DNA from: Oscillospiraceae bacterium
Lineage (GTDB): Bacteria > Bacillota > Clostridia > Oscillospirales > Ruminococcaceae
Reading direction: 5' to 3'
DNA: 64,000 bases
Assembly (NCBI GenBank): GCA_020054675.1
Contig: JAIHAL010000002.1
Coordinates: 144,042 to 208,041 of the forward strand
Shown in pieces: positions 52,381-52,432 of the stretch. Below the pieces are notes generated by a model that had not been told where the DNA came from, ran no database searches, and worked only from the letters and a program-made list of their open reading frames with translations. The number at the start of each line of letters is the position of its first letter. Within the stretch, counting starts at the first letter, position 1. The position numbers were made by a program, and so were the translations under genes.

Positions 52381-52432
52381 GGACAATGGGGTCTGGAAAT
52401 GCCAAAGGCGGCTTTTCAGACCCTGTTTCTTT
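52381..52432 (+). promoter_or_regulatory. tandem hexaloop hairpins/terminator in the nifH leader, ANTAR-type antitermination candidate
   Basis: Hairpin 1 (52381-52394): stem GGAC/GTCT closing the hexaloop AATGGG. Hairpin 2 (52401-52412): stem GCC/GGC closing the hexaloop AAAGGC. Both loops have A at position 1 and G at position 4, the pattern bound by ANTAR-domain antiterminators (AmiR, NasR, EutV). Hairpin 2 is the tip of an extended stem, 52389-52399 paired with 52413-52423, followed by a T-rich stretch (52424-52432). Its base uses bases 52389-52394 of hairpin 1, so the two forms exclude each other. Binding by an ANTAR protein would block the terminator; this is inferred. Confidence 0.6.

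Follow-up and report, generated by a model that had tools for sequence, protein, structure and literature searches.

A probable ANTAR-responsive transcription attenuator with a single hexaloop in the nifH leader of an Oscillospiraceae bacterium

The leader of nifH in this Oscillospiraceae bacterium is very probably an ANTAR-responsive transcription attenuator of the nif operon, in a reduced design with a single hexaloop. According to the proposed mechanism, RNA polymerase would initiate some 30 nt 5' of the hairpin, from a vegetative promoter, and by default G4–G6 of the hexaloop and the 3' arm of the hairpin would be drawn into a strong terminator, so that transcription would stop before nifH. 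Under nitrogen limitation, the only ANTAR protein of the genome would bind the GAC[AAUGGG]GUC hexaloop and hold the hairpin, the terminator would be left without its 5' base, and the polymerase would read the nif operon. The operon of the urea transporter (urtA) would be under the same switch. A sequence-only reading of the locus had proposed that nif is switched at the level of transcription elongation by an ANTAR-type target, and this proposal is supported by the present analysis, with protein binding as a predicted component. The features are listed in Table 1, in coordinates of the window, i.e., the whole stretch of 64,000 nt that was analyzed, unless another locus is given.

Table 1. Features of the nifH leader, the nif operon and its neighbor, and the related element before urtA.
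Feature	Coordinates	Strand	Basis
Complete nif operon leader	52318-52472
Sigma-A (sigma-70-type) promoter TTGATG-17-TATACT	52318..52346	+	Consensus match, 9/12
Hairpin 1, ANTAR-type hexaloop GGAC[AATGGG]GTCT, P2 equivalent (GGAC 52381-52384, loop AATGGG 52385-52390, GTCT 52391-52394; A1 = 52385, G4 = 52388)	52381..52394	+	GAC[RAnGRn]GYC consensus at terminator base; compensatory stem changes
Hairpin 2, terminator apex GCC[AAAGGC]GGC (GCC 52401-52403, loop AAAGGC 52404-52409, GGC 52410-52412)	52401..52412	+	A1/G4 at background in this position
Intrinsic terminator (attenuator), stem 52388-52403 with 52410-52424, then U-rich TGTTTCTTT (52424-52432)	52388..52432	+	Folding energy; stem kept in L003
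nifH, first gene of the controlled operon	52472..53290	+	TIGR01287, 468.6 bits, above cut-off
nifI1, nifI2, nifD, nifK, nifE, nifN-B(-X) fusion; remaining operon 3' of the attenuator	53312..61120	+
anfO-like gene, divergent	51555..52166	-	PF09582, 145.8 bits; TIGR02940 below its cut-off
Second single-hexaloop attenuator GAC[AATGAA]GTC with terminator, before urtA	L104 1461-1545 (G000:C18:56736); L190

Judged by its consensus match, the promoter should place the start of nifH transcription near 52353, and hairpin 1 begins about 28–30 nt 3' of this position. Similar promoters, mostly with a spacing of 17 bp, lie 5' of the hairpin in most of the compared nifH leaders. Both A1/G4 hairpins are present as drawn in the sequence-only reading, 6 nt apart, and the base of the terminator stem indeed takes G4–G6 of loop 1 and the 3' arm of hairpin 1 as its 5' arm. 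The stem itself was given there as 11 bp and was found to have 15 bp with one bulged base. The terminator and the hexaloop hairpin are mutually exclusive by pairing. The terminator segment has a folding energy of −23.4 kcal/mol versus −11.5 for shuffled sequences (z = −5.0; 0 of 200 shuffles equally stable), and the entire leader folds at −33 kcal/mol (z = −3.9). Hairpin 1 by itself is worth just −2.7, so that some factor has to keep it folded for the terminator not to form. As the upstream gene is divergent and none reads in, the terminator can act solely on the transcript of nifH itself and is thus an attenuator. Its U-tract is imperfect and interrupted, which counts against this reading, and a strict terminator scan gave no call at the nifH leader terminator.

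For comparison, 97 nifH leaders were used, covering the genome's own family and 80 other loci, with the duplicate of the window's own locus excluded. In the last 320 nt of the leaders, 102 terminators were predicted, and hexaloop hairpins with at least three Watson-Crick pairs were counted. A1/G4 was found in 41 of 81 hexaloops at the 5' base of a terminator versus 91 of 1042 at other positions of these leaders, and G4 in 61 of 81 versus 193 of 1042; as the leader sequences are related, p-values are optimistic, and these counts are to be read as strong enrichment and not as probabilities. The remaining 40 of the 81 terminator-base hexaloops are spread over 15 other letter combinations, and 15 of them are G1/G4. 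The consensus GAC[RAnGRn]GYC, in which A-U/C-G pairs close the hexaloop, occurs at the terminator base in 40 of the 97 leaders, across Clostridia and Negativicutes. The hairpins were selected on their three inner stem pairs. The fourth, outermost pair, which had no share in the selection, is nonetheless formed in 37 of 48 sequences and shows 11 two-sided changes. In a MAFFT alignment, hairpin and terminator are in register at the 5' end only.

The loop is AACGGG in the congener L003, and two pairs of the terminator are changed there from U-G to C-G and from G-U to G-C. These changes track the change in the loop, so both exclusive folds are kept. The element is conserved also in distant Clostridia, so that hairpin 1 passed the conservation check named with the sequence-only reading. 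Hexaloop-terminator units stand in series of two or three in L045, L064, L076, L082, L088, and L090. In L045, L064, and L090 (Eubacteriaceae/Acetobacterium group), the serial units lie 5' of nifH and could be a multi-step attenuator, and several units, some with G1/G4 loops, are found in L076 and L082. Variant loops with G1/G4, e.g., GAC[GAnGRR]GTC, occupy the same place 5' of nifH in L024, L049, L051, L076, and L082. Structural work has found that the ANTAR protein contacts G4 and not A1, and the variant loops fit this finding.

Known ANTAR targets have one hairpin upstream (P1) and another overlapping the terminator base (P2) (PMC3369931, PMC8934654), and hairpin 1 corresponds by position to P2. 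EutV needs both hexaloops in vivo, with a linker of 5–12 nt (PMC3369931), and a single hexaloop therefore might not suffice. In the redefinition by Walshe et al. 2022 (PMC8934654), one hexaloop makes up the minimal ANTAR site, and P1 is proposed to recruit and P2 to antiterminate; the role and extent of single-hexaloop targets were left undecided there, with EutV requiring both. In the window, no A1..G4 hexaloop with a 3-bp stem was found between the predicted start and hairpin 1. The nifH leader thus carries the A1/G4 hexaloop over the terminator 5' base of EutV-type dual targets and lacks a P1 at 5–12 nt upstream of P2; it appears to work like the classical dual ANTAR motif but is not classed as one. 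Its G4 hexaloop on a paired stem of at least 3 bp agrees with the minimal site of Walshe et al. 2022. An upstream A1/G4 hexaloop was seen at 0 of 18 sites in genomes with pseudo-receiver ANTARs and at 4 of 22 sites in other genomes (L035, L053, L073, and L084). The recovery of dual versions means that the scan does find P1 where it is present, with L035, L053, and L084 as the only dual leaders validating the detector; EutP/EutV loci were also examined for P1, and these stretches had no recognizable leader. Sites without P1 number 18 of 18 with pseudo-receivers versus 18 of 22 others, too small a difference to tie the loss of P1 causally to the type of receiver. The distance from the −10 element to the stem is 35 nt here versus 59 nt in the dual leader L035, and the predicted start site often leaves scant space for P1.

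The sequence-only reading took the two hairpins as a tandem A1/G4 layout of the ANTAR type. The part concerning a hexaloop hairpin fused to the terminator holds for hairpin 1, but the tandem does not hold, as hairpin 2 is the terminator apex and there is no P1. Hairpins 1 and 2 could still form the recognition unit of a classical dual-hexaloop target in reversed order, the overlapping hairpin first and the apical one second, and in favor of such a unit both loops are A1/G4 on a 6-nt linker, hairpin 2 is identical in L003 and fits both folds, and a downstream A1/G4 loop occurs also in L055 and L061. This arrangement is nevertheless unlikely. The partner hairpin of known targets is the upstream one, the A1/G4 loop of hairpin 2 is missing in L005, L006, L007, L008, and L009 of the same family, and downstream A1/G4 loops in this position were found at 5 of 51 sites in the leaders, which is at the level of the background (8.7% for all hexaloops). 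The enrichment across nifH leaders is therefore a property of hairpin 1 and not of hairpin 2, whose A1/G4 loop is kept within the genus only and is probably incidental.

A genome search for ANTAR proteins, which the sequence-only reading had called for, found exactly one gene. Its product of 189 aa has an ANTAR domain (PF03861, 58.2 bits, cut-off 27.3) and a receiver domain barely over its cut-off (PF00072, 30.9 bits, cut-off 30.2), and it is a sequence relative of Rv1626, EutV, AmiR, and NasR. The phospho-acceptor Asp of the receiver is replaced by Tyr in this genome and by Asn, Ser, and others in the subfamily, so the protein is not counted as a two-component regulator and is not activated through conventional phosphorylation. 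Among the RNA-contact residues of EutV, Lys143, Lys147 (as Arg), Lys149, Glu160, Met172, and Arg175 are kept. Four are changed (R142 to L, Y164 to H, R168 to Q, and R177 to P), which counts against the ANTAR reading, tempered by AmiR, which likewise has His at 164. The gene is located immediately beside glnA (glutamine synthetase) in most relatives, and it adjoins dapF in this genome and its congener. The adjacency in relatives suggests glutamine synthetase or glutamine as the likeliest signal by which nitrogen would be sensed. This pseudo-receiver ANTAR protein, glnA-adjacent in most relatives, is the likely effector.

The leader element and the ANTAR gene were compared in 64 nifH-bearing genomes. 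An ANTAR gene is present in all 35 element-bearing genomes, and the element in none of the nine ANTAR-less genomes (Fisher p = 0.0004). No recognized element was found before nifH in 20 of 55 ANTAR-bearing genomes, and ANTAR genes are widespread in the family whether nif is present or not (143 of 198); both counts speak against the proposed link. The frequency of ANTAR genes regardless of nif suggests that the protein probably serves nitrogen metabolism broadly. Within the genome, the stem-loop pattern GACAnnGnnGTC has 23 sites, no more than the control, and a terminator is next at two of them only, the nifH leader and the urtA leader; a one-mismatch search with the consensus gave matches equal in number to the control. 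The gene urtA encodes a urea transporter (TIGR03407, 530.7 bits). No P1 was seen at its element, which is identical in the congener, and the terminator changes there preserve the stem.

The switch could also be operated by a translated leader, a metabolite, or a different RNA-binding protein, and the hexaloop consensus would then reflect this other factor. That the ANTAR protein binds the hairpin is a prediction from sequence and ANTAR genes are not specific to nif, which leaves some room for such a switch; it is nonetheless improbable, slightly more so than the reversed dual unit, since the consensus of the loop and closing pairs is that of ANTAR targets and, of the genomes tested, only ANTAR-bearing ones have the element. 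Rfam searches of the window at the gathering threshold and of the leader at a permissive one returned chance miRNA families alone, with no riboswitch, T-box, or other leader family. Least probable of all, and very unlikely, is an unregulated structure, either a constitutive terminator or a chance fold, for instance one insulating nifH from antisense or divergent transcription. The interruptions in the U-tract and the divergent neighbor gene would suit it, but a constitutive terminator between nifH's own promoter and nifH would silence nif permanently, and the terminator base is specifically fused to the consensus hairpin, with up to three serial units in L045, L064, and L090. The ANTAR-responsive attenuator remains the preferred reading.

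No sigma-54 site had been noted in the sequence-only reading, and the absence of sigma-54 is now genome-wide: the genome, about 90% complete, has no match to PF04552, while four control genomes matched. The nif operon is of molybdenum type (nifD above its cut-off), and an anfO-like gene adjoins it; AnfO is named after the Fe-only nitrogenase. Beside this gene, at window positions 50607-51554 (-), there is a weak MORN-like repeat protein (PF07661 below cut-off). The last gene of the listed operon codes for an 874-aa fusion (58496-61120) of NifN, NifB (radical SAM), and a NifX-like Nitro_FeMo-Co domain. Homocitrate synthase (nifV) is seemingly split at 61454-63257 into two overlapping genes, the first for an omega-like C-terminal part and the second for an alpha-like catalytic part.

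The EutV/EutW attenuators of Enterococcus faecalis eut (PMC3369931, PMC8934654) share with the nifH leader the hexaloop with A1 and G4, the A-U/C-G closing pairs, which EutV needs (PMC3369931), the P2-type hairpin over the terminator 5' base, and a receiver-ANTAR effector. Unlike there, no P1 is present here, the receiver is degenerate without the phospho-Asp, and the genes are nif and urt. AmiR/AmiC of the Pseudomonas amidase operon has in common the pseudo-receiver with ANTAR, which ordinary phosphorylation cannot activate, and His at the position of EutV Tyr164, but no AmiC-like partner was identified here and a dual-hexaloop leader is described for amiE (PMC3369931). A link between ANTAR and nif is not new, as Ramesh et al. 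2012 predicted ANTAR-associated nitrogenase regulons in Pelobacter carbinolicus and Desulfotomaculum, likewise with targets 5' of nitrogenase genes. Their covariance model requires two hairpins, and a single-hexaloop target should fail it. NitR, the antiterminator of clostridial ammonia assimilation (PMC4676874), is also nitrogen-linked and may be compared with the ANTAR gene beside glnA in most relatives, unlike the dapF-adjoining gene of this genome and its congener; the literature search found no nif target of NitR. According to the same search, what is new is the single-hexaloop design of clostridial nif, its wide distribution, the serial arrangement, and the glnA-linked pseudo-receiver ANTAR partner.

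To our knowledge, little is known about how nif is switched on and off in anaerobic Firmicutes without NifA and sigma-54. About 40% of the 97 nifH leaders carry the conserved hexaloop-at-terminator element, which makes this switching directly testable. Such leaders are single-hexaloop attenuators provided by nature, and the dual versions of a few relatives (L035, L084) can be set against them. On balance, it may well be that widespread P1-less single-hexaloop ANTAR attenuators, often in series of two or three units, control nitrogenase in Clostridia and Negativicutes. In many of these genomes, they would be driven by an ANTAR protein that is linked to glnA, is independent of phosphorylation, and learns the nitrogen status from glutamine synthetase. 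If true, the rule that antitermination needs two hexaloops would be overturned, and these diazotrophs, of which this one lacks sigma-54, would have a switch of nif at the RNA level.
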